Shown: in pieces, positions 41,008 to 50,459 of the stretch
Layout of the letters: each line of letters opens with the position of its first letter
How positions within the stretch are numbered: position 1 is the stretch's first letter
Assembly (NCBI GenBank): GCA_903828565.1
Contig: CAIKMQ010000003.1
Span: forward strand, 62,001 to 126,000
Origin: an uncultured Leptolinea sp.
GTDB taxonomy: Bacteria > Chloroflexota > Anaerolineae > Anaerolineales > Anaerolineaceae
Reading direction: 5' to 3'
Length of the DNA stretch: 64,000 bases
The notes under the pieces: model-generated
The model's database searches: none
Told to the model about the DNA's origin: nothing
The model's input: the letters and a program-made list of their open reading frames with translations, nothing else
Position numbers and translations under genes: made by a program

Positions 41008-41709
41008 ATGAATGCGACACGAATCATGGTAGTGGAAGATGAACCCAGCGTAAGCGAGGTGGTCAGCCTGTACCTGGGGAAAGCAGGCTATGATGTCATT
41101 TCGATACGCAACGGGCAGGCAGCCCTGGATGAGCTGGAAAAAGAGCTGCCTCATCTGGTAGTTTTGGATCTCATGCTGCCGGAAGTGGACGGCCGCGAGA
41201 TTCTTGCCTGGCTGCGACAGCGCAGCGCAGTGCCCGTGATCGTTCTTACAGCCCTGCGTGATGAATCGGATCGCATTGATGGACTGGAAATGGGCGCGGA
41301 TGACTACATTACCAAGCCTTTCAGCCCGCAGGAGTTGGTCAGCCGGGTGCGCGCCGTGTTACGTCGCGGCGGTGGAGCAACGGCACCCGGTCAGGAAGGG
41401 GATAATTCACAATCTCTGGTGTATGAGAACTTACAGATCAACCCGGTGATGCGGTTGGTGATCGCTCAAAGCCGGGAGATCGACCTGACGGCAAAGGAAT
41501 TTGACCTGTTGCTGCTGCTCGCCCGCAATCCCAAAAAAGTATTCACCCGCTCGCAGTTGTTGGAACAGGTGTGGGGGCTATCCGAATACATTGATCCCGG
41601 CACGGTAACAGTTCATATGCGCAGATTGCGCGAAAAGATCGAGGTCGATCCTTCCGATCCGCGGCACATTGAGACCGTCTGGGGCGTAGGGTACCGTTTT
41701 GAGCCATAA
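41008..41709 (+). CDS. OmpR/PhoB-family response regulator
   Basis: A 233-residue regulator: a receiver domain with acidic pocket Glu10-Asp11 and phospho-acceptor Asp54 in Val-Leu-Asp-Leu-Met-Leu-Pro, Lys near 104, then a C-terminal winged helix (about 135-230) with Leu-Thr-x-Lys-Glu-Phe-Asp-Leu-Leu. AGGAG precedes the ATG. It overlaps the kinase gene by 11 bases and is its partner. Targets are unknown; the envelope cluster that starts 77 bases after the kinase is a candidate by position only. Confidence 0.93.
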   Translation: MNATRIMVVEDEPSVSEVVSLYLGKAGYDVISIRNGQAALDELEKELPHLVVLDLMLPEVDGREILAWLRQRSAVPVIVLTALRDESDRIDGLEMGADDYITKPFSPQELVSRVRAVLRRGGGATAPGQEGDNSQSLVYENLQINPVMRLVIAQSREIDLTAKEFDLLLLLARNPKKVFTRSQLLEQVWGLSEYIDPGTVTVHMRRLREKIEVDPSDPRHIETVWGVGYRFEP

Positions 41710-42976
41710 ACCGGAACCTTCCAGCCAGCAAGGGCATCATATCTCGCGGGCTTTCCTGCGTTTCAGTATCGGCATTCTCTTTGCGCTGGAGGCTTCGCTA
41801 GCTCTGGTGTATTACGTGCTTAAAATACCAGAAAGCAAGTTCGCATTCATCGCCATAGTGATGGGCGTTTCCGTGGTCTTTTCTCTGGCACTGGTGTACG
41901 CTGCCTTTGAGCGGGGTTGGATCTCACAGATTCCGCGGTTGGACTGGACGATGTTTGGAGGTTACTCTTTTTCCATGATCATCGTGGTGACGGTGATCGC
42001 CATTATCACCAGCCGTGTCTTTACCAATACCCTCGATGCCTGGTTGACTGCCATGCTGCTCTTTTTTGGCAGCGGCATCTTCCTTTCATTTGGTTATGCG
42101 CTCACACATTCGATCACATCCCGGCTAAAACTGCTGCACACAGCCTCGCGGGGGATTGCCGGCGGCAATCTGCAGGAGCGCGTACCCGTTTCAGGCCAGG
42201 ATGAGATTGCTGAACTAAGTGCCACCTTCAACGCCATGGCAGCCCAGTTGCAGGATCTGGACGCGCACCAGAAAGAACTGCGGCGTGTGAGAAATGACCT
42301 GTTCGCATGGGCCGGACATGACCTGCGCACACCGCTCACTTCCATCCGCGCGATGCTGGAAGCCCTGTCAGATCAGGTGGTGGATGACCCCATCACCCGC
42401 CAGCGTTACTTGCAGATCGCACGCAAGGAGATCGATTACCTCTCACGCCTGATTGATGATCTATTCGACCTTGCCCGGATGGACGCGGATGGTTTGAAGC
42501 TGGACTTGCAGCCTGTGTCACTGGGGGACCTCATCTCAGACACGCTGGGCTGGTTCCACACCCTGGCCGTTCAGAACCGGATTGACCTGAGCGGGTCTGT
42601 GCAGACAGGGGTGGACCTGGTGTACGCGGATGCGCAGTTGCTGAACAGGGTTCTTTCCAACCTTACCAGCAACGCCCTGCGATTTACACCTCCAGGCGGG
42701 AGGGTGGTGATCAGCGCAGAGCGGGCTGCAGGCAAGATCCTGGTAATGGTGCGCGACAACGGTGAAGGCATTCGTGCCGAAGACCTGCCCTTCATCTTTG
42801 AGCGTTTCTACCGTGGAGAAAAATCACGCAATCGTTCGACCGGGGGTTCAGGGCTGGGATTAGCCATCAGCCGGGGGATCATTGAGGCGCATCACGAACG
42901 CATCTTTGCCAACAGCGCACCGGGTGAGGGGACGACCATTTCCTTCACTCTGCAGGAAAATTCACCCAAGAGATAG
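41699..42976 (+). CDS. Membrane sensor histidine kinase
   Basis: A 425-residue kinase. Four hydrophobic segments lie in the first 145 residues (about 15-35, 43-62, 78-100, 110-135) with almost no external sensor domain, suggesting it senses within the membrane. A HAMP domain, HisKA with Gly-His-Asp-Leu-Arg-Thr-Pro (His near 207), and HATPase_c with Asp-Asn-Gly-Glu-Gly-Ile and Gly-Ser-Gly-Leu-Gly-Leu follow. The start is TTG 41699 with TAGGG just upstream, inside the end of the regulator gene. Confidence 0.9.
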   Translation: MSHKPEPSSQQGHHISRAFLRFSIGILFALEASLALVYYVLKIPESKFAFIAIVMGVSVVFSLALVYAAFERGWISQIPRLDWTMFGGYSFSMIIVVTVIAIITSRVFTNTLDAWLTAMLLFFGSGIFLSFGYALTHSITSRLKLLHTASRGIAGGNLQERVPVSGQDEIAELSATFNAMAAQLQDLDAHQKELRRVRNDLFAWAGHDLRTPLTSIRAMLEALSDQVVDDPITRQRYLQIARKEIDYLSRLIDDLFDLARMDADGLKLDLQPVSLGDLISDTLGWFHTLAVQNRIDLSGSVQTGVDLVYADAQLLNRVLSNLTSNALRFTPPGGRVVISAERAAGKILVMVRDNGEGIRAEDLPFIFERFYRGEKSRNRSTGGSGLGLAISRGIIEAHHERIFANSAPGEGTTISFTLQENSPKR

Positions 42977-43006: not shown

Positions 43007-43035
43007 TTGACCTTTGATTTCCGTTCATATAAAAT
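43007..43035 (+). promoter_or_regulatory. Near-consensus promoter of the 43-50 kb envelope cluster
   Basis: TTGACC (43007-43012), spacer of 17, TAAAAT (43030-43035). Predicted start of transcription near 43042, about 11 bases before the first ATG. Confidence 0.7.
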
Positions 43036-43052
43036 GAAAATGGATTCAAAGT

Positions 43053-43322
43053 ATGAAAAACGGGATTGACGTTGAACAGATAGACGCATGGGCGGCAGAG
43101 ATTAGGGACCGCGGGTTTGCACAACCCGCGGCATTGTTGATGACGGCCTTTACGCCATTTAGCTGGGTATTCGGGCAGTTCTATTATTTCAGTCAACCTT
43201 TTCTCGCCACTCTATTACCGGAAAAGGATCAGGAAGTTATCCGAACCCTGCTTCAGGATGCGAACGCATGGAAAGAATTCGCTGAGCGGTTGAAGGATCC
43301 CCGGGGGAGTGAAAATGGTTGA
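43053..43322 (+). CDS. Hypothetical small protein, first gene of envelope cluster
   Basis: An 89-residue protein. Residues 1-25 and 65-89 are polar and helical; residues 26-58 are hydrophobic and aromatic-rich (several Phe, Tyr, Trp and Pro), more like a membrane-embedded or re-entrant segment than a simple helix. No family is recognised. It overlaps the next gene by 8 bases and sits directly behind the strong promoter, so it belongs to the cluster. Confidence 0.6.
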   Translation: MKNGIDVEQIDAWAAEIRDRGFAQPAALLMTAFTPFSWVFGQFYYFSQPFLATLLPEKDQEVIRTLLQDANAWKEFAERLKDPRGSENG

Positions 43323-44049
43323 CCCTGCGCTCTACCTGGTTTTTCTGGCTGGGCTGCTAATGGGGGGTTATTACGTGCTGGAAAGCCGCGGCAGGCAGAG
43401 GCCATTTCGCATCGTTCCTTCCTTTGCGCGTCTCAGACGGGCAGTTGCTATCCTGGTGGAAAATGGACAATCGGCACAGGTTGCTCTGGGTCAGGGTAGT
43501 ATTCTGGCACCTCAGGCCGGCTCTTCGCTGGCGGCGCTTGAGACCCTGGCTGGCCTTTCTCGGTTGTGCCTGGCTGGTGATTCTCCGCCATTGGCCAGTA
43601 GCGGCGATGGATCTCTGCATCTGCTGATCACGGAGGCCTGGCGAGTGAGCCAGGGTTTTCGGGCGTCTGCAAAAAGAACCAACCGGCAAGTGATCTTCCC
43701 CGGTGCTTCACCTTTCTCCTATATTGCCGGTGCCATGCTGGCACAGCAGGGCGAAGATGTTGCCATGTCGCTCATCACCGGCAGCCAGGGGCCGGAAGTC
43801 GGGTTATTGGTGGAAGCCGCGGAACGGAACCGGGCATTTACTGCCGGCGGAAGTGAACATCTGCTGGCACAGGCTGTGCTGGTGGGTACGACGCGTTTGG
43901 CATTTACAGGGGAAGAGTATTTTGCCATGAATGCCGGCTGGAAGCGGGATCGCCTGCATGCTGCCAGCCTGCATACTCAGGATGCGCTGCGGCTGCTGAT
44001 CATTGCTGCCATCCTCCTCGGCGGCATACTTACATTGGTAGGTAAATAA
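43315..44049 (+). CDS. DUF6754-like membrane protein
   Basis: A 244-residue protein with transmembrane helices near both ends (about 2-20 and 222-241) and a soluble alpha/beta part between. Conserved-looking stretches are Gly-Ser-Glu-His-Leu-Leu-Ala-Gln-Ala, Glu-Glu-Tyr-Phe-Ala-Met-Asn-Ala, and Leu-His-Thr-Gln-Asp-Ala-Leu-Arg, which I associate with DUF6754, a family without known function. ATG 43315 (rather than GTG 43309) has GGGGGAG 4-10 bases before it. Its stop overlaps the next start as TAATG. Confidence 0.65.
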   Translation: MVDPALYLVFLAGLLMGGYYVLESRGRQRPFRIVPSFARLRRAVAILVENGQSAQVALGQGSILAPQAGSSLAALETLAGLSRLCLAGDSPPLASSGDGSLHLLITEAWRVSQGFRASAKRTNRQVIFPGASPFSYIAGAMLAQQGEDVAMSLITGSQGPEVGLLVEAAERNRAFTAGGSEHLLAQAVLVGTTRLAFTGEEYFAMNAGWKRDRLHAASLHTQDALRLLIIAAILLGGILTLVGK

Positions 44050-44660
44050 TGCGTTCACGCATTCTGGCTATTCTGACTCCCCTGGCTGCAGTTCTACTGC
44101 TTGCTGGTGTTTTCTTGCAGACACCTGTCGTGCAGGCGATGAGCAGAACCCTGCTGGGGTGGGTCATTACACTGGCTGGTGTGGCCGGCTTGATAGGCAT
44201 TGGCTCTTTGCTTGCTTCGCATACCCGCCGGGTGGCGAATGGGCAGAAAGATTGGTTTTACAGCCTGATTGCTTTGCTCAGTTTCTCGGCGATCTTTACA
44301 TTGGGGCTGGTGCTGAAACCGGCGGACACCTTCTACACATCTCTGGTTGCAGCCATTTTGGTACCGATTGAAACCAGTCTGCTGGCCTTGCTGGTGGTAT
44401 CTTTGGTAGCCGCCCTGATCCGCATGCTGCGGCCGGGAATGGACCTGCACAGTGCCCTGTTTTTTTTCTCAGCGGTGGTGTTCCTCTGGGCTGCAACCGG
44501 TTTTGTGCCTTTTGAACGATCAGCGGGGATACAGGTCGTCCTGACACTCTTCAATACAATCCCGCTTGGTGGTGCCCGCGGACTTTTGCTAGGTATTGGG
44601 CTGGGCAGCCTGATGGCTGGTTGGCGAACACTCATCCGGCCTACTCAAGGGGGGCAGTAA
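44049..44660 (+). CDS. Hypothetical six-helix membrane protein
   Basis: A 203-residue protein with six predicted transmembrane helices (about 5-23, 34-55, 66-84, 97-123, 135-152, 165-195), short loops and no soluble domain. No known family is recognised. It is coupled to the DUF6754 gene by TAATG, and its own stop is directly followed by the ATG of the next gene. Likely a subunit of the membrane complex suggested by the cluster. Confidence 0.65.
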   Translation: MRSRILAILTPLAAVLLLAGVFLQTPVVQAMSRTLLGWVITLAGVAGLIGIGSLLASHTRRVANGQKDWFYSLIALLSFSAIFTLGLVLKPADTFYTSLVAAILVPIETSLLALLVVSLVAALIRMLRPGMDLHSALFFFSAVVFLWAATGFVPFERSAGIQVVLTLFNTIPLGGARGLLLGIGLGSLMAGWRTLIRPTQGGQ

Positions 44661-46295
44661 ATGGCGGGCGTGATCTGTCCCAATTGCCGGCGCAGCAACC
44701 CTGAAGGGGCTTTGTTCTGTGTTTTCTGCCAGGCGGCTCTTAACAGACCCGGGATTCCACCCGCTCCGCGTCCGGGAGCAGCGGATGATGAGCCTGAATG
44801 GCTGCGCCGCGTCCGCGAGCGAAAGGAAAAAGACTCCACCCGTCCACGGACCAGCGGTGAAGAAGTAGATTCGAACCTGGATACGGTGCTGCGGCGCATT
44901 GGCTTTACCCGGAATCCGTTGAGCGGGCATGATGACGAAACAGCCCGTCCGCAAGAAACACCGCAACAGGCGGAATTAATCCCGGAGGAAACCGCCGGGT
45001 CTGAAGACATAGACATCCAACTGGTTGTGGGCCAAAATACACCTTCGAGCGAGCCGGCAACTAATACGCTTGAAGAAAGCCTTCAGGCGGAACCGGATGA
45101 AGGCATTCAAGTGGCAGCGGCGGAAGATAGCCGGGAAGATATCCTTTCCGCTGGTGATGATGCTCAGACCCCGGATACTCCTGACGATGGCAATTCGGTT
45201 GATCCGGAGTTAATTCCTGAAATTATTACAGAACCTGCAGGAACTGCCCAGGCGCCCTACACCCCGGTCATGCCGGGGTTGGAAGAGATCCAGGGTGCTC
45301 TGCAGGGTGAAGAGATCACATATACTGAACCGGTTTCAATTCCTCCCGTCCAGCCAGACCGTCCGCAGCGCGTCTCCTTTGAAGAAACATTACGCGCAGA
45401 AAGACAGCCGACTGTTCTACCTGCCTATCGGCGGAATAGATCGTCTTATGTAGTGCGCTGGCTGATCACCGGACTGCTGTTCGGGTTGATCTCACTGGCC
45501 ATTCTGGGTGGAGCTGCTCCACGCAGCCTGCCGGTCAATATCCCTTTGGAAACAGCTAGTCTGTATGAATCACTGCGAGGTATTCCACCTGCGGCGAAAG
45601 TCCTTCTGGTGATCGGCTATCAGCCGGCCTACAGCGGCGAAATAGAAACAGCAGCCGGGGCTGTCATGCGCCTGTTGGCTGAACGGGGATCAAAATTCCA
45701 GGTGATCTCAACCTCCAGCCAAAATCTCTTTCTGGCGAATAGATTACTGGATTCAACCAAGCGGAATTACCCCTCTCAGCTTGCGCCTTATATGGCCGGC
45801 AATGGATACGACATATTAGGATACCTGCCAGGCGGTCCGGCGGGCTTACGCGGATTGCTGACAGATCTCCCCGCCAGCTTGCCGGTGGGTGTGGACTTGA
45901 ACCCGGCTCAAAATGCTCTACAGGCAGCGGGTATCCAGCAACTGGATGATTACGATGCCATTCTGGTATTGACCGATGACCCGGAGACAGCCCGTCTCTG
46001 GGTGGAGCAGATCAGCCCGGACCTTTCCGGGACGCGTTTATGGATGGCTGTCAGCAGTCAGGCGATACCACTGGTACGTCCTTACTTCCGCTCCGGGCAG
46101 GTGGACGGGTTGGTAGGCGGGTTATATGGCGCAGCCTGTTTGGAACAGGTACTGCGGGAAACCGGCCCGGCTTTGCGACTATGGAATGGCTACGAGAATG
46201 GCCTGCTGATCGCTCTGTTCACCATACTGGTTGGCGGAATTCTGAATTTCACCGGCTTTTCATTGATCCATCACAGAAAGGAAGAAGCCCGATGA
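44661..46295 (+). CDS. Zinc-ribbon, acidic-linker membrane protein with extracytoplasmic domain
   Basis: A 544-residue protein with an unusual order of parts. Residues 5-25 are a zinc ribbon (Cys-x2-Cys...Cys-x2-Cys). Residues about 30-250 are acidic, low in hydrophobics and probably disordered. A transmembrane helix lies near 268-290, then an alpha/beta domain of about 200 residues, and a second helix near 515-537 with a His/Lys/Glu tail. With both termini inside, the folded domain is outside; it starts Lys-Val-Leu-Leu-Val-Ile-Gly-Tyr, like a Rossmann-type fold. No family is recognised. GGGGGGCAG precedes the ATG; the stop overlaps the next start (ATGA). Confidence 0.65.
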   Translation: MAGVICPNCRRSNPEGALFCVFCQAALNRPGIPPAPRPGAADDEPEWLRRVRERKEKDSTRPRTSGEEVDSNLDTVLRRIGFTRNPLSGHDDETARPQETPQQAELIPEETAGSEDIDIQLVVGQNTPSSEPATNTLEESLQAEPDEGIQVAAAEDSREDILSAGDDAQTPDTPDDGNSVDPELIPEIITEPAGTAQAPYTPVMPGLEEIQGALQGEEITYTEPVSIPPVQPDRPQRVSFEETLRAERQPTVLPAYRRNRSSYVVRWLITGLLFGLISLAILGGAAPRSLPVNIPLETASLYESLRGIPPAAKVLLVIGYQPAYSGEIETAAGAVMRLLAERGSKFQVISTSSQNLFLANRLLDSTKRNYPSQLAPYMAGNGYDILGYLPGGPAGLRGLLTDLPASLPVGVDLNPAQNALQAAGIQQLDDYDAILVLTDDPETARLWVEQISPDLSGTRLWMAVSSQAIPLVRPYFRSGQVDGLVGGLYGAACLEQVLRETGPALRLWNGYENGLLIALFTILVGGILNFTGFSLIHHRKEEAR

Positions 46296-46963
46296 GCACC
46301 GCAGATCTTGTGTGGGCTGCCATTGGTTTCGTGCTTTCCGTGATGGTTTTCAGCTATCTGCTGGGGGATAACGCGCTCTTCCGCCTGGCCATACACCTGT
46401 TCATCGGGGCAGCCTCTGGCTACGCTGCTGTCATTCTGGCAACCCAGGTGGTCTATCCCCGGCTGATTTTACCCTTGCTATCCAAACCGATCACTACTGG
46501 GGATCTAATTCTGGATATCGTGATCCCCATGCTACTCTCCCTGATGCTGTTATTGGTCCTCTGGCAGCGTTTTTCGCCGGCCGGCAGGGTTCCGCTGGCT
46601 TTATTGTTGGGAGCAGCGGCAGCATTCGCCATCAGCGGTGCAGCCCGTGGCACGCTTCTGCCTCAGGCACAGGCGACGATCCAGCTATTCAATCCTGCCG
46701 GATTGCCGGCTGCTTTACCTGAAGCGATTCTAACGACTCTTGGGGTAGTGACGGTACTGGTGTATTACTATCACGGGGTGAAGGTCGCTCCGGATGGCTC
46801 ATTGAAAAGGCCGCGCTGGGTACGCATAGGGGCTGTTATTGGCGGTACCATTATCTTCATTACCTTGGGGGCTCTGTATGCGGGTGTTCTGACGACTGCC
46901 ATCTCTGCACTGGTGGAACGTTTGTATGCCTTCTGGACCCTGGTTTCAGCACTGGTGAGATGA
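46292..46963 (+). CDS. Hypothetical six-helix membrane protein
   Basis: A 223-residue protein with about six transmembrane helices and a basic cytoplasmic loop before the last (Lys-Arg-Pro-Arg-Trp-Val-Arg). It is not obviously homologous to the other six-helix protein of the cluster. ATG 46292 overlaps the previous stop (ATGA), and a GGAAG site lies upstream; a longer frame starting 46040 only reads through the preceding gene. No family is recognised. Confidence 0.65.
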   Translation: MSTADLVWAAIGFVLSVMVFSYLLGDNALFRLAIHLFIGAASGYAAVILATQVVYPRLILPLLSKPITTGDLILDIVIPMLLSLMLLLVLWQRFSPAGRVPLALLLGAAAAFAISGAARGTLLPQAQATIQLFNPAGLPAALPEAILTTLGVVTVLVYYYHGVKVAPDGSLKRPRWVRIGAVIGGTIIFITLGALYAGVLTTAISALVERLYAFWTLVSALVR

Positions 46964-46969
46964 GCGTAT

Positions 46970-48694
46970 ATGGCTAGATCTGCTATTGAATCGGTGCTGG
47001 CAATTGATATCGGTGAATTGACCACCCGAGTATTGCTGTATGAACAGGTGGATGGTGGTTTTCTGGCTGTCGCCCGTGGCGAAGCGCCCACCACGGCGGG
47101 AATACCGGAACTGGGTGTCATGCCTGGGGTTTTGGAAGCACTGAAGGTGGTAGAAACTGCCGCTGGCAAAGTATTTATAATCCCGCAAGGGAACATACAA
47201 GCCGCCCCAAACCTTGTAGATGCTGTAGTGGTGACCCTGGCAGCCGGCGCGGACATCCGGACGGTATGCGTCAGCCTGACGACAGACATCAGCCTTGAAA
47301 GCGTAATACGCCTGGCATGCAGCAGTGATACTGCTGTCGTGGCATCCCTGGCGCGTGGGGATGGACGACCTCTTCAAGAACAGATGGACGCTGTTCTGCA
47401 CTCCTCGCCAGAACTGATCATTATCGGCGGTGGTACTGAACACGGCAAGGCAGGACAGGCAGGAGATCTGCTCAATGCTCTTCGTATGGCACTGGCCTTA
47501 TTGCCGCGCGATAAGCGTCCGGAGGTATTATACGCGGGCAGCTCTGCCCTGGAGGAAAAAACCAGGCATACAATTGGCACCCAGGCACCGGTGATAGTGA
47601 CGGCAAATATACAACCACAGGTGGATCAGGAAAGCCTGGACCCTGCCCGAACCATATTGATGGGGATGACTGCCCGCTTGAAAAGCCGACGAGTGACGGG
47701 CATGCAATCACTGGTGGATCAAACCGGTGGTGAGGTAACGCTCCGCACCACATCTTTCGGCCGCATGATCCGTTACCTGGGAAGCGTCTACCAGTCTGCG
47801 CGTGGAGTGTTGGGTGTTGACATGGGTATTACGCATCTTACCCTGGCGGGCGCCCGCGCCGGGCAACTGTGGCAGGGACGCTATCTATATCCCGCTGCTC
47901 AGCAGGAGATTTCCTCTGATAGCATGCAACAGCTGCTGTCCTGGCTGACAGAGCCGGTGTATCCGGAAAAGGCGGCTGAGTGCTGGCTGCAGCGAGATAT
48001 CTACCCCGGGGCCATCCCTGAATTATCGGATGAGGTGGCTGTGGACCTTTCCCTGGCACGTCTGCGCATACAGCAGGCTATGCAGCAATATCAGCAGATG
48101 TACCCGGTTTTGCAGCTTTCAACAGATTCGGGGCTGACACCGGGCTGGGAGCCGATCATCCTTTCGGGTGAGTGGCCTGCGCGCTGGCTGAGCCCTGCGC
48201 AAGCTGTCCACCTGTTGCTGGATGCACTCCAGCCAACCGGTATTACTAACCTGGTGTTGGATTCTGGAAATCTTTTATCGCTGTTGGGAGCCTGTGGACA
48301 GGTTGCGCCAAATTTACCGGTGGACCTGTTGGAAGCCGGGCTGTTGCAACATCTCGGTACGGTCGTTGCCCCGGTCTGTTTGCGAGCTGGAGTATCCCGC
48401 TGGATGGAGCTTTCCATGCAGCCTGAAGGGGGTGAGGAGGTCAGGGTTACAGTGTACGCAGGCAATCTGTTCAATCTTCCCCTGGATGAGGGGCAGAGTG
48501 CCAGACTGACCCTGATACCGGAGCCGCAAATCCAGTTGGGACGGAAGCTGAACCACGGGGAACTGACGCTCAAAGTGACCGGCAGCGCTCTGGGGGTGAT
48601 CATTGATGCACGTGGCAGAAAAATCCAACTGCCGGCAGGTGCCCTGGAACGGCAAAAACTGCTAAAAAAATGGCAAAGTTCCTTGATACGCTGA
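46970..48694 (+). CDS. GlmL/MutL-like ASKHA ATPase
   Basis: A 574-residue protein of the actin/Hsp70/sugar-kinase fold resembling GlmL, the ATPase that reactivates glutamate mutase. Ala-Ile-Asp-Ile-Gly-Glu-Leu-Thr-Thr (10-18) is the first phosphate loop, Ile-Ile-Gly-Gly-Gly-Thr-Glu lies near 150, and Val-Asp-Met-Gly-Ile-Thr-His-Leu near 284 is the second phosphate loop. Ala-Arg-Gly-Glu-Ala-Pro-Thr-Thr near 35 is very GlmL-like. No B12-dependent mutase is in the window, and all its neighbours are membrane or surface proteins, so a role in assembling or powering an envelope complex is the better guess. Confidence 0.75.
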   Translation: MARSAIESVLAIDIGELTTRVLLYEQVDGGFLAVARGEAPTTAGIPELGVMPGVLEALKVVETAAGKVFIIPQGNIQAAPNLVDAVVVTLAAGADIRTVCVSLTTDISLESVIRLACSSDTAVVASLARGDGRPLQEQMDAVLHSSPELIIIGGGTEHGKAGQAGDLLNALRMALALLPRDKRPEVLYAGSSALEEKTRHTIGTQAPVIVTANIQPQVDQESLDPARTILMGMTARLKSRRVTGMQSLVDQTGGEVTLRTTSFGRMIRYLGSVYQSARGVLGVDMGITHLTLAGARAGQLWQGRYLYPAAQQEISSDSMQQLLSWLTEPVYPEKAAECWLQRDIYPGAIPELSDEVAVDLSLARLRIQQAMQQYQQMYPVLQLSTDSGLTPGWEPIILSGEWPARWLSPAQAVHLLLDALQPTGITNLVLDSGNLLSLLGACGQVAPNLPVDLLEAGLLQHLGTVVAPVCLRAGVSRWMELSMQPEGGEEVRVTVYAGNLFNLPLDEGQSARLTLIPEPQIQLGRKLNHGELTLKVTGSALGVIIDARGRKIQLPAGALERQKLLKKWQSSLIR

Positions 48695-48719
48695 TCCTCG
48701 CGGTATAGTTCTTGCACAT

Positions 48720-48742
48720 AATCCCGGTAGGAACCGAGGATT
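48720..48742 (+). promoter_or_regulatory. Hairpin covering the ribosome-binding site of the gene at 48743
   Basis: AATCC (48720-48724) pairs with GGATT (48738-48742), and CGGT (48725-48728) with ACCG (48733-48736), with a 4-base loop and one bulged A. The GAGG site is inside the stem, right before ATG 48743. A TATAGT at 48704 could start a transcript here. Confidence 0.45.
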
Positions 48743-49804
48743 ATGTTCGTACCCGCCACCCATTACCTTTCCCTGACCAAGATCCGTAGAGAACGTTACC
48801 TGCCATTGCCGGGGACTGTCCTGGTGGCTGCAGGTCAGGCTGTGAAAGCAGCTGATGTGATTGCTGAAACAGGTCTGACCAATTCACACCTGTTGATTGA
48901 TACACGCGAAACCCTCGGCCTGTCGCCCCGACAGGCTGCTTCTCTGATGCAGGTAAAGTTGTACGATGCAGTCCATCGGGGAGATATCCTTGCCGGCCCG
49001 GTGGGGTTTCCGCCACGCCAGCTGCGGGCTGCCCACGATGGCACGGTGGTATACCTGCAAGACGGCCAATTAATACTGGAGGTATACAGCTCGCCATATC
49101 GGCTGTTGGCTGGCTTGGACGGACAGGTGACAAAGGTCGTGCCAGGAAGAGGGGCGGTGATCGAATCGACTGGAGCCCTTATACAGGGAGTCTGGGGCAA
49201 TGACCGGTTGGGGTGTGGGGAGTTATCCATCCCGAGTGATCGACCGGATGCCGAGTTGACTGGAGATTTTTCTGAAAAAGACTTACAGAGATCCATCTTG
49301 CTGGCAGGAACCGTTCGTAGCGTGGAAGTTCTCAGATCTCTAAAGAAAACCGGAGTAGCGGGGTTGATCCTGGGCAGCTTGCCGGGCAGCCTGGTTCCGC
49401 TGGCAACGCAATTGGATATTCCAATCATTGCGCTGGATGGTTTCGGGCAGCTGCCTGTGAACCCGGTGGCTTATCGCATTTTGAGCGAGCATGCAGGCAG
49501 AGAGGTGATCATAAACTCCAGCCATTGGGACAGATATAACAACACCCGGCCTGAAGTGGTGATACCGACCCAAAATGAAAACATGCCGATCCCCCCGGTC
49601 AACCAGCCGTCATTTATGCCGGGGCAGGAGATTCGCGTAAATTCGAGCCTGAATAAAGGGAAAGTTGGCAAGTTTATTGCACTAGAGAGAGAACAGGTTT
49701 GGCTGGAAAATGGGATCCAAATTCCCGCAGCGACCATTCACCTGGAAGATGGAAATAACACCTGTGTCCCGCTGGCCAACCTGGAAGCACTGGCGGTCAG
49801 GTAG
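48743..49804 (+). CDS. Hypothetical protein with lipoyl-like and KOW-like parts
   Basis: A 353-residue protein without signal peptide or membrane helix. Residues about 24-45 (Gly-Thr-Val-Leu-Val-Ala-Ala-Gly-Gln-Ala-Val...Asp-Val-Ile-Ala) and 97-145 look like lipoyl/biotinyl-type beta hairpins, as found in RnfC and membrane-fusion proteins. The C terminus (about 293-350; Gly-Gln-Glu-Ile-Arg-Val, then Gly-Lys-Val-Gly-Lys) resembles a KOW beta barrel. It could be a scaffold for the cluster's complex. No family name is known to me. Translation may be limited by the leader hairpin. Confidence 0.6.
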   Translation: MFVPATHYLSLTKIRRERYLPLPGTVLVAAGQAVKAADVIAETGLTNSHLLIDTRETLGLSPRQAASLMQVKLYDAVHRGDILAGPVGFPPRQLRAAHDGTVVYLQDGQLILEVYSSPYRLLAGLDGQVTKVVPGRGAVIESTGALIQGVWGNDRLGCGELSIPSDRPDAELTGDFSEKDLQRSILLAGTVRSVEVLRSLKKTGVAGLILGSLPGSLVPLATQLDIPIIALDGFGQLPVNPVAYRILSEHAGREVIINSSHWDRYNNTRPEVVIPTQNENMPIPPVNQPSFMPGQEIRVNSSLNKGKVGKFIALEREQVWLENGIQIPAATIHLEDGNNTCVPLANLEALAVR

Positions 49805-49819
49805 AAGAGAGAGGCAAGA

Positions 49820-50401
49820 ATGTCTGATTTCGATTACTCGCAATTTGAAGAGGTACCGGAACCCAAAAAGAAGGGCAACCGCACATTCGCGGTGCTTGCC
49901 TCCATCCTGGGTGCCATCATTCTGCTGGCAGTTGTCGCAGGTGCGGCGTATGCCATTTTCATCATGCCTGGTCAGCAAGCACAGCAGGCGGAATTGGCAT
50001 CTAAAGCATCTGCTGAGGTAACGGCTACCGTGATGGCAGCTACCGAAGCTGCTGTGGTGGTCATTCTGCCCACGGAAACCCCCGTTGATGCGGGTACCGG
50101 GGGAGAGTTGACTGAGGAGTTGTCCATGACGGCAACTGTATCCGCGTTGCTGACACAGGCTGCCGGATCGAACCCTACCGTACCTGTGGCAACCGAAACT
50201 CCGACACCGGTAGCAGCTGCAGGACAACCGCTGGCGACCGCCACACAGTTGAAAGCCGCAACAGCCATCCCCACACCGACGGCTCTGCCGACGACAGGCT
50301 TCGCGGATGAAGTGGGCTTGCCCGGCCTGATGGGATTGGCGTTCCTGTTCGTGATGATCATTGCCATCACCCGCCAGGTACGCGCAGCCCAAAACCGCTG
50401 A
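49820..50401 (+). CDS. Surface protein with C-terminal LPTTG sorting-like signal
   Basis: A 193-residue protein. A 20-residue acidic then basic cytoplasmic start leads to a transmembrane helix (about 22-48). Residues 55-155 are Thr/Ala/Pro/Val-rich and extended, without cysteine. At 156-160 stands Leu-Pro-Thr-Thr-Gly, followed by a hydrophobic helix (about 167-184) and an Arg-containing tail: the order of a sortase sorting signal. A sortase is not in the window. It is the last gene of the cluster and is followed by a strong hairpin. Confidence 0.7.
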   Translation: MSDFDYSQFEEVPEPKKKGNRTFAVLASILGAIILLAVVAGAAYAIFIMPGQQAQQAELASKASAEVTATVMAATEAAVVVILPTETPVDAGTGGELTEELSMTATVSALLTQAAGSNPTVPVATETPTPVAAAGQPLATATQLKAATAIPTPTALPTTGFADEVGLPGLMGLAFLFVMIIAITRQVRAAQNR

Positions 50402-50424
50402 CATTACCGGATTTATTCTCCCGA

Positions 50425-50459
50425 GCAATAAGGACGGCATGAGCAACCGTCCTTATTGC
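50425..50459. terminator. Bidirectional terminator closing the envelope cluster
   Basis: A 13-bp perfect stem (50425-50437 with 50447-50459) with a 9-base loop, followed by GCTTGTATTT on the plus strand. It also serves the convergent gene ending at 50468. Confidence 0.8.

Follow-up and report, generated by a model that had tools for sequence, protein, structure and literature searches.

The window described here comprises 64,000 nucleotides from an uncultured Leptolinea sp. (contig CAIKMQ010000003.1, positions 62,001 to 126,000; Chloroflexota, class Anaerolineae, family Anaerolineaceae), whose genome is 2.2 Mb in size. It contains eight neighboring genes, g1 to g8, whose products include several membrane proteins and an ATPase of the GlmL/MutL type. 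The natural unit of this system is a four-gene membrane cassette, g2-g3-g4-g5, together with a usually single g6-g7 pair and the small g1. The parts have known folds, yet the system matches no described kind.

That the g1-g8 gene unit exists is nearly certain. An open reading frame (ORF) check found all eight genes in the window, every one on the plus strand. With profiles made from the window proteins, the same order on a single strand was recovered in 40 of 40 other genomes, 20 from the family and 20 from other families of the class. Two of these 40 genomes lack g1, several lack g8, and one, in which the retrieved stretch stops early, lacks g7. DUF6754, the family to which g2 belongs, is encoded by 62 of 120 Anaerolineae genomes, and g6 by 36 of 41 Anaerolineaceae genomes. 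The order of g1 to g6, with g7 in many cases, is also kept in other classes of Chloroflexota; the genomes concerned presumably include Chloroflexus aurantiacus, C. aggregans, Roseiflexus, and Herpetosiphon aurantiacus. It is likewise kept in every locus labelled as Chloroflexota in a named genome collection, and Levilinea saccharolytica is among the named organisms with the system. The conserved order rules out chance or artefact as the origin of the gene set. An earlier note, made from the sequence of this DNA, had proposed that the genes form one unit, and the 40 genomes and the phylum-wide core order bear this out. Its set of eight holds for the linked core of g1 to g7, but not for g8, which is absent outside Anaerolineae-type loci.

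The g2-g3-g4-g5 cassette occurs in up to seven copies in a genome. In contrast, most of the 22 genomes checked, which carry one to seven cassettes each, have one full-length g6, and so do most of those with 2-7 cassettes; a few of the 22 contain a second, partial GlmL-like match. With about one full-length g6 per genome for up to seven cassettes, g6 is not a subunit reserved for one complex. The constant neighbor of g6 is g7. Chloroflexota keep one cassette. Distances between 61 cassettes correlate across the four genes (Spearman 0.80-0.90), and g2 to g5 therefore evolve as one. The mean identity between paralogous cassettes within a genome is 33% in Methanomethylicota and 53% in WOR-3, whereas the identity to the closest match from a different genome is 72% and 78%, respectively. 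All 27 WOR-3 cassettes, and 7 of the 10 from Methanomethylicota, have their nearest relative in another genome, not among the paralogues of their own. The paralogous cassettes are old and distinct, as expected if they handled distinct cargo.

The scan of the named collection also returned loci from Bathyarchaeota, Methanomethylicota, WOR-3, and Planctomyces, and all four genomes have a strong match to g6 (1e-101 to 1e-160). DUF6754 was found in 140 of 147 WOR-3 genomes (homologue matches up to 1e-126), in 41 of 149 Planctomycetota genomes, and in 4 of 200 genomes of the sampled archaeal phylum, with 4-7 matches in each of the four. None of the 14 control genomes, taken from model organisms, has it, a possible reason why the system has not been studied. 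Profiles built from Chloroflexota sequences only recover the genes from outside the phylum at E-values of 1e-7 to 1e-153; these matches are therefore not the result of profile drift. Mis-binned contigs as the source of the archaeal matches are ruled out by the archaeal ribosomal protein L21e, which is present in five of five archaeal genomes and in one of them (G502) lies on the 1.08-Mb contig that bears several cassettes. A system restricted to Chloroflexota is ruled out by the WOR-3, Planctomycetota, and archaeal loci.

The gene order is g1-g6-g7-g2-g3-g4-g5 in Planctomycetota; in WOR-3, g1-g6-g7 is followed by two g2-g3-g4-g5 cassettes. In Bathyarchaeia, g7-g6 is divergent from g2-g3-g4-g5-g1, and in Methanomethylicota g6-g7 is separate from several lone cassettes. 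With a Chloroflexota-only profile, g1 is detected next to g6 in Planctomycetota and WOR-3 (4e-15 to 1e-11), and it is also detected in Bathyarchaeia (6e-7). In the g6 phylogeny, the sequences from outside Chloroflexota form one fully supported group, inside which the two archaea are sisters; the Chloroflexota groups mostly track taxonomy.

The products of g2 to g5 were compared by topology and fold. The g2 protein (43315-44049) matches PF20539 (DUF6754) with 33.9 bits against a gathering cut-off of 27 (E 2.3e-8). It is predicted to consist of an N-out transmembrane (TM) helix, a cytoplasmic Rossmann-like domain, and a C-terminal TM helix. The g4 protein (44661-46295; 544 amino acids) has a zinc ribbon, an acidic cytoplasmic linker, a TM helix, an outer Rossmann-like domain (45546-46157), and a further TM helix. 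AlphaFold models of g2 and of the outer part of g4, built from alignments of 41-42 sequences, both have the arrangement TM helix, Rossmann-like domain, TM helix; the mean pLDDT is 92.5 for g2 and 92.2 for the g4 domain. Six TM helices each are predicted for g3 (44049-44660; 203 amino acids) and g5 (46292-46963; 223 amino acids), the latter with the motif DNPL(F/Y)R..E.LFVG. These topology predictions, with one pair of helices around the outer g4 domain and another pair around the inner g2 domain, agree with the earlier description of two six-helix membrane proteins and a further membrane protein with an outer domain.

From the charge pattern, the g2 domain is predicted to lie inside the cell and the g4 domain outside, and g3 and g5 have opposite predicted topologies, N-in/C-in and N-out/C-out, respectively. 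Because the sides of the domains and of the termini are predicted to be opposite, g4 plus g5 would be the topological inverse of g2 plus g3. This topology and the general fold hint at an inverted duplication, a tentative idea given that profile comparison found no homology between the halves. In a structure search, the fold nearest to g2 was Sir2 (Z 12.6, 147 residues, 3.6 Å), and further matches were to SIS isomerases, transhydrogenase domain III (Z 9.9), and the CODH epsilon subunit (Z 9.8). The outer domain of g4 had generic Rossmann matches only (best Z 8.9). No enzyme or transporter stood out in this search for either domain, and likeness of fold does not establish a function. For g3 and g5 there was no Pfam family and no solved relative by sequence. 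Apart from DUF6754, comparison of g2 to g5 with curated families and solved structures gave no meaningful match, a result still compatible with a distant relation. Two variants were seen outside Chloroflexota. The g2 of WOR-3 and Planctomycetota is often extended at its N-terminus, ahead of the first TM helix, by a segment that on inspection looks like Fn3, and a planctomycetal g5 copy (L149:152-1162) has an N-terminal extension that holds one more TM segment.

The cytoplasmic tail of Chloroflexota g4 consists of one or more zinc ribbons and a linker densely filled with PxWL motifs. Across 55 g4 orthologues we counted 639 of these motifs, whereas shuffled sequences gave an expectation of 11.7 (about 55-fold). 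The Chloroflexus-like loci (L102, L103, and L104) have 49-63 motifs per g4, and none of 1530 neighboring genes has as many as three. A second motif, GPLAGLxGVLP, is located near the membrane in 19 orthologues. The g4 of the window has a reduced array with one copy, PEWL (44793-44804), and g4 outside Chloroflexota is mostly about 280 amino acids long, without the long PxWL tail. In Chloroflexota the tail would be a multivalent recruitment platform for a cytosolic partner, which could be g6, g7, or the cargo.

The g6 protein (46970-48694; 574 amino acids) is an ASKHA ATPase of the GlmL/MutL type that carries an additional C-terminal domain of roughly 120 amino acids. It matches PF13941 (MutL/GlmL) with 111.8 bits against a gathering cut-off of 27 (E 4.6e-32), and residues 9-455 align to positions 1-447 of the 450 in the model. 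In phosphate-1, D13 is conserved in 21 of 22 sequences and G15 and T19 in all 22; in phosphate-2, D284 and G286 are conserved in 21 of 22. Judged from the alignment, the ASKHA phosphate motifs are intact. No window protein from g1 to g8 scored above cut-off in NCBIfam; g6 reached 28.9 bits for accessory_GlmL and glmL_fam, far from membership at 475 and 204.05 bits, and 28.9-38 bits for the GlmL-type models overall (cut-offs 204-600).

The g7 protein (48743-49804; 353 amino acids) is soluble, with barrel-sandwich-hybrid repeats, an alpha/beta region, and a KOW/NusG-like SH3 domain. Its profile matched the KOW domains of SPT5, NusG, and L24 as well as NqrA in the PDB. The WOR-3 orthologue of g7 has matches to RnfC_N (2e-5), NQRA_N (3e-5), and KOW (1e-4); for RnfC_N (24.9 versus 25.6) and NQRA_N (24.4 versus 25) these fall below the Pfam cut-offs. 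The core member g1 (43053-43322; 89 amino acids) is small and soluble, with aromatic and amphipathic character in an alignment of 25 orthologues. None of g1, g3, g4, g5, g7, and g8 from the window had a Pfam match over cut-off. The g8 protein (49820-50401; 193 amino acids) has an N-terminal TM helix, a Thr-rich stretch, and a C-terminus that resembles a sortase signal (LPTTGF, a TM helix or hydrophobic stretch, and a basic tail). The LPxTG is present in most orthologues from the family and altered or lost in several others. No match to g8 was found outside Chloroflexota in the loci tested, and g8 is a local addition, not part of the core.

Our preferred reading, which we hold tentatively, is that each cassette encodes a membrane transporter or translocator and that several versions of it share one ATP-driven activator, g6-g7. 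We rank transport first because two six-helix proteins, soluble domains on both faces of the membrane, and diversified paralogues fit it best. The products of the locus probably form a complex in the cytoplasmic membrane. In this complex the outer domain of g4 would read the cassette-specific cargo or ligand, and the inner domain of g2 would gate transport. As a common activating or assembly factor driven by ATP, g6 and g7 would dock on the cytoplasmic side and reset or prime the complexes, a role like the one that GlmL-type ASKHA proteins probably have towards their mutases. In Chloroflexota, g8 would add a component on the wall side. The earlier proposal of one membrane complex with a cytoplasmic ATPase fits the products, but must be amended in that g6 is shared among cassettes and not dedicated to one.

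Several points weigh against transport. Neither the sequences nor the folds of the subunits point to a known channel or transporter, profile comparison detected no homology between g3 and g5 or between g2 and g4, and the neighborhood survey found no constant substrate gene beside the cassettes. The contact of g6 and g7 with the membrane proteins is one that we infer, and the case for transport rests on topology and on the behavior of the paralogues, in which receptors or sensors could look alike. A wider version of the transport reading, which we consider speculative and rather doubtful, is a class of transport machine common to bacteria and archaea. It would consist of two inverted halves and have many cargo-specific modules, for which a single ASKHA ATPase and its barrel-sandwich/KOW adaptor would provide energy or assembly.

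In a more specific form of the earlier idea, the cassettes might instead encode an envelope polymer machine: g6 would be the motor on the cytoplasmic side, and the complex would export a surface polysaccharide or glycoprotein, assemble it, or anchor it. We consider this rather unlikely. One type of WOR-3 cassette has a Poly_export/SLBB (Wza-type) gene directly upstream, and another type has a Wzi capsule-assembly gene directly downstream. In a Herpetosiphon-like locus, g6 is followed by Wzz-type and DUF11 surface genes, sugar transferases occur near several Anaerolineae loci, and g8 bears the LPxTG-like signal. However, 37 WOR-3 genomes contain 45 Poly_export genes, and only 7-8 of these are near a cassette, apparently as one conserved block; the neighbors of most cassettes are unrelated, and the archaeal cassettes are alone or beside amidohydrolase and peptidase genes. 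The earlier suggestion that the complex moves or displays a surface polymer finds a weak counterpart in the Wza- and Wzi-type genes beside some WOR-3 cassettes, but these form a few conserved local blocks and it does not hold in general. Poly_export/SLBB or Wzi genes beside WOR-3 cassettes were located at L248:7333-8586, L256:10312-11583, and L261:12131-13669. Near archaeal copies, amidohydrolase and D-aminoacylase-like genes were recognized by inspection (L165:33-2920 and L241:4213-9814).

A sensing or signaling complex, in which g4 binds a ligand outside the cell, the nucleotide-binding Rossmann domain of g2 relays the signal, and g6 is an ATP-dependent switch, would explain the presence of Rossmann domains inside and outside in one complex; the diversified paralogues would sense different ligands. 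Several fold matches of g2 are to ligand- or nucleotide-binding regulators (SIS, RCK), and several WOR-3 cassettes have DUF4388 and roadblock-like genes after them (e.g., L251:12365-13855). Nevertheless, the 12 TM helices of g3 and g5 exceed the needs of a receptor, the fold matches are generic, and there is no constant output domain. We regard this explanation as unlikely.

An energy-converting or redox complex appears improbable. In such a complex the DHS-like, NAD(P)/FAD-type fold of g2 and the NqrA/RnfC-like domain of g7 would couple cytoplasmic electrons to ion movement. The matches of g2 to Sir2, transhydrogenase domain III, and CODH epsilon agree with this, as do those of g7 to NqrA/RnfC barrel-sandwich domains. 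Inspection of translations also revealed heterodisulfide-reductase-like or oxoacid:ferredoxin genes near several WOR-3 and archaeal cassettes. On the other hand, g2 and g7 have no conserved cysteine or cofactor motif, and the NqrA/RnfC scores are below the curated cut-offs. The system is also presumably found in aerobic and anaerobic lineages alike, which counts against a redox function.

The remaining alternative, that g6 is the ordinary GlmL of a B12-dependent mutase and that its linkage to membrane genes is incidental, draws on the Pfam match of g6 but is most improbable and already contradicted by the conserved linkage and co-occurrence: the GlmL-type NCBIfam scores are far under the cut-offs, the linkage is kept across bacterial phyla and in Bathyarchaeia, and no mutase was recognized among the most recurrent neighbors, although no genome-wide search for mutases was made.

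Compared with known GlmL/MutL ATPases (PF13941; TIGR01319), g6 covers the whole model and keeps the phosphate motifs, but it has the extra C-terminal domain, and its neighbors are g7 and membrane genes, not mutase subunits. All g2 homologues belong to DUF6754, a family of unknown function. The similarity of g7 to NqrA/RnfC and to NusG/SPT5 KOW proteins is at the level of domains; g7 shows no sign of the FMN/NADH or Fe-S parts of NqrA/RnfC, and no Nqr/Rnf partners were seen at the loci. In ECF-type transporters, several substrate units share one ATPase module. The present system is similar in having many membrane modules per ATPase; however, g6 is an ASKHA protein and not an ABC ATPase, and no relation in sequence or fold was seen. 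Like the PilM/PilN proteins of type IV pili, the system has an ASKHA protein at the membrane, and g6 has a weak match to the PilM profile (E 0.02); the match of g6 to MutL is far stronger, and the set contains no pilus genes. An anti-phage defense system was rejected, as none of the eight proteins matches PADLOC models, and phage genes were rejected for lack of a PHROGs match. A several-member match to a known secretion or metabolic system was looked for and not found, in keeping with the earlier statement that no known system has this set. A literature search, with subscription journals and preprints outside its scope, returned no paper naming DUF6754, PF20539, or PF13941, and none with GlmL together with ASKHA.

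Five proteins with no Pfam family (g1, g3, g4, g5, and g7) and one DUF are now parts of one system, which is near-universal in WOR-3, common in two other bacterial phyla, and present in archaea. The pattern of many modules to one ATPase makes its function genetically testable. Cultured organisms seem to carry the system as well, Levilinea saccharolytica by name and probably Chloroflexus and Herpetosiphon.

In the window, the ORF coordinates confirm the tight packing described before, with overlaps of 8 bases between g1 and g2, 1 base between g2 and g3 (TAATG), and 4 bases between g4 and g5 (ATGA). The reported 13-bp terminator corresponds to a perfect inverted repeat on the plus strand (50425-50437 and 50447-50459, 9-nt loop). 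It is a likely terminator, although the T-rich stretch 3' of the hairpin is modest only and a terminator scan of the region did not call it. A sigma-70-like promoter candidate precedes g1 on the plus strand (43007-43035; 10 of 12 consensus bases, 17-nt spacer). This near-consensus match is real, but the region contains 4 such sites and shuffled sequences contain 4.7 ± 2.2. The match is no evidence in itself, because such sites are equally frequent by chance. Directly upstream of g1-g8 and on the same strand is a response regulator and histidine kinase pair (41008-42976), and a similar pair is also located upstream in a locus of the same genus (L062); the pair possibly regulates g1-g8. About 16 Chloroflexota loci have, close to the operon, a gene for a DUF389 membrane protein that includes an SH3_3 domain (e.g., L070:14293-15492).

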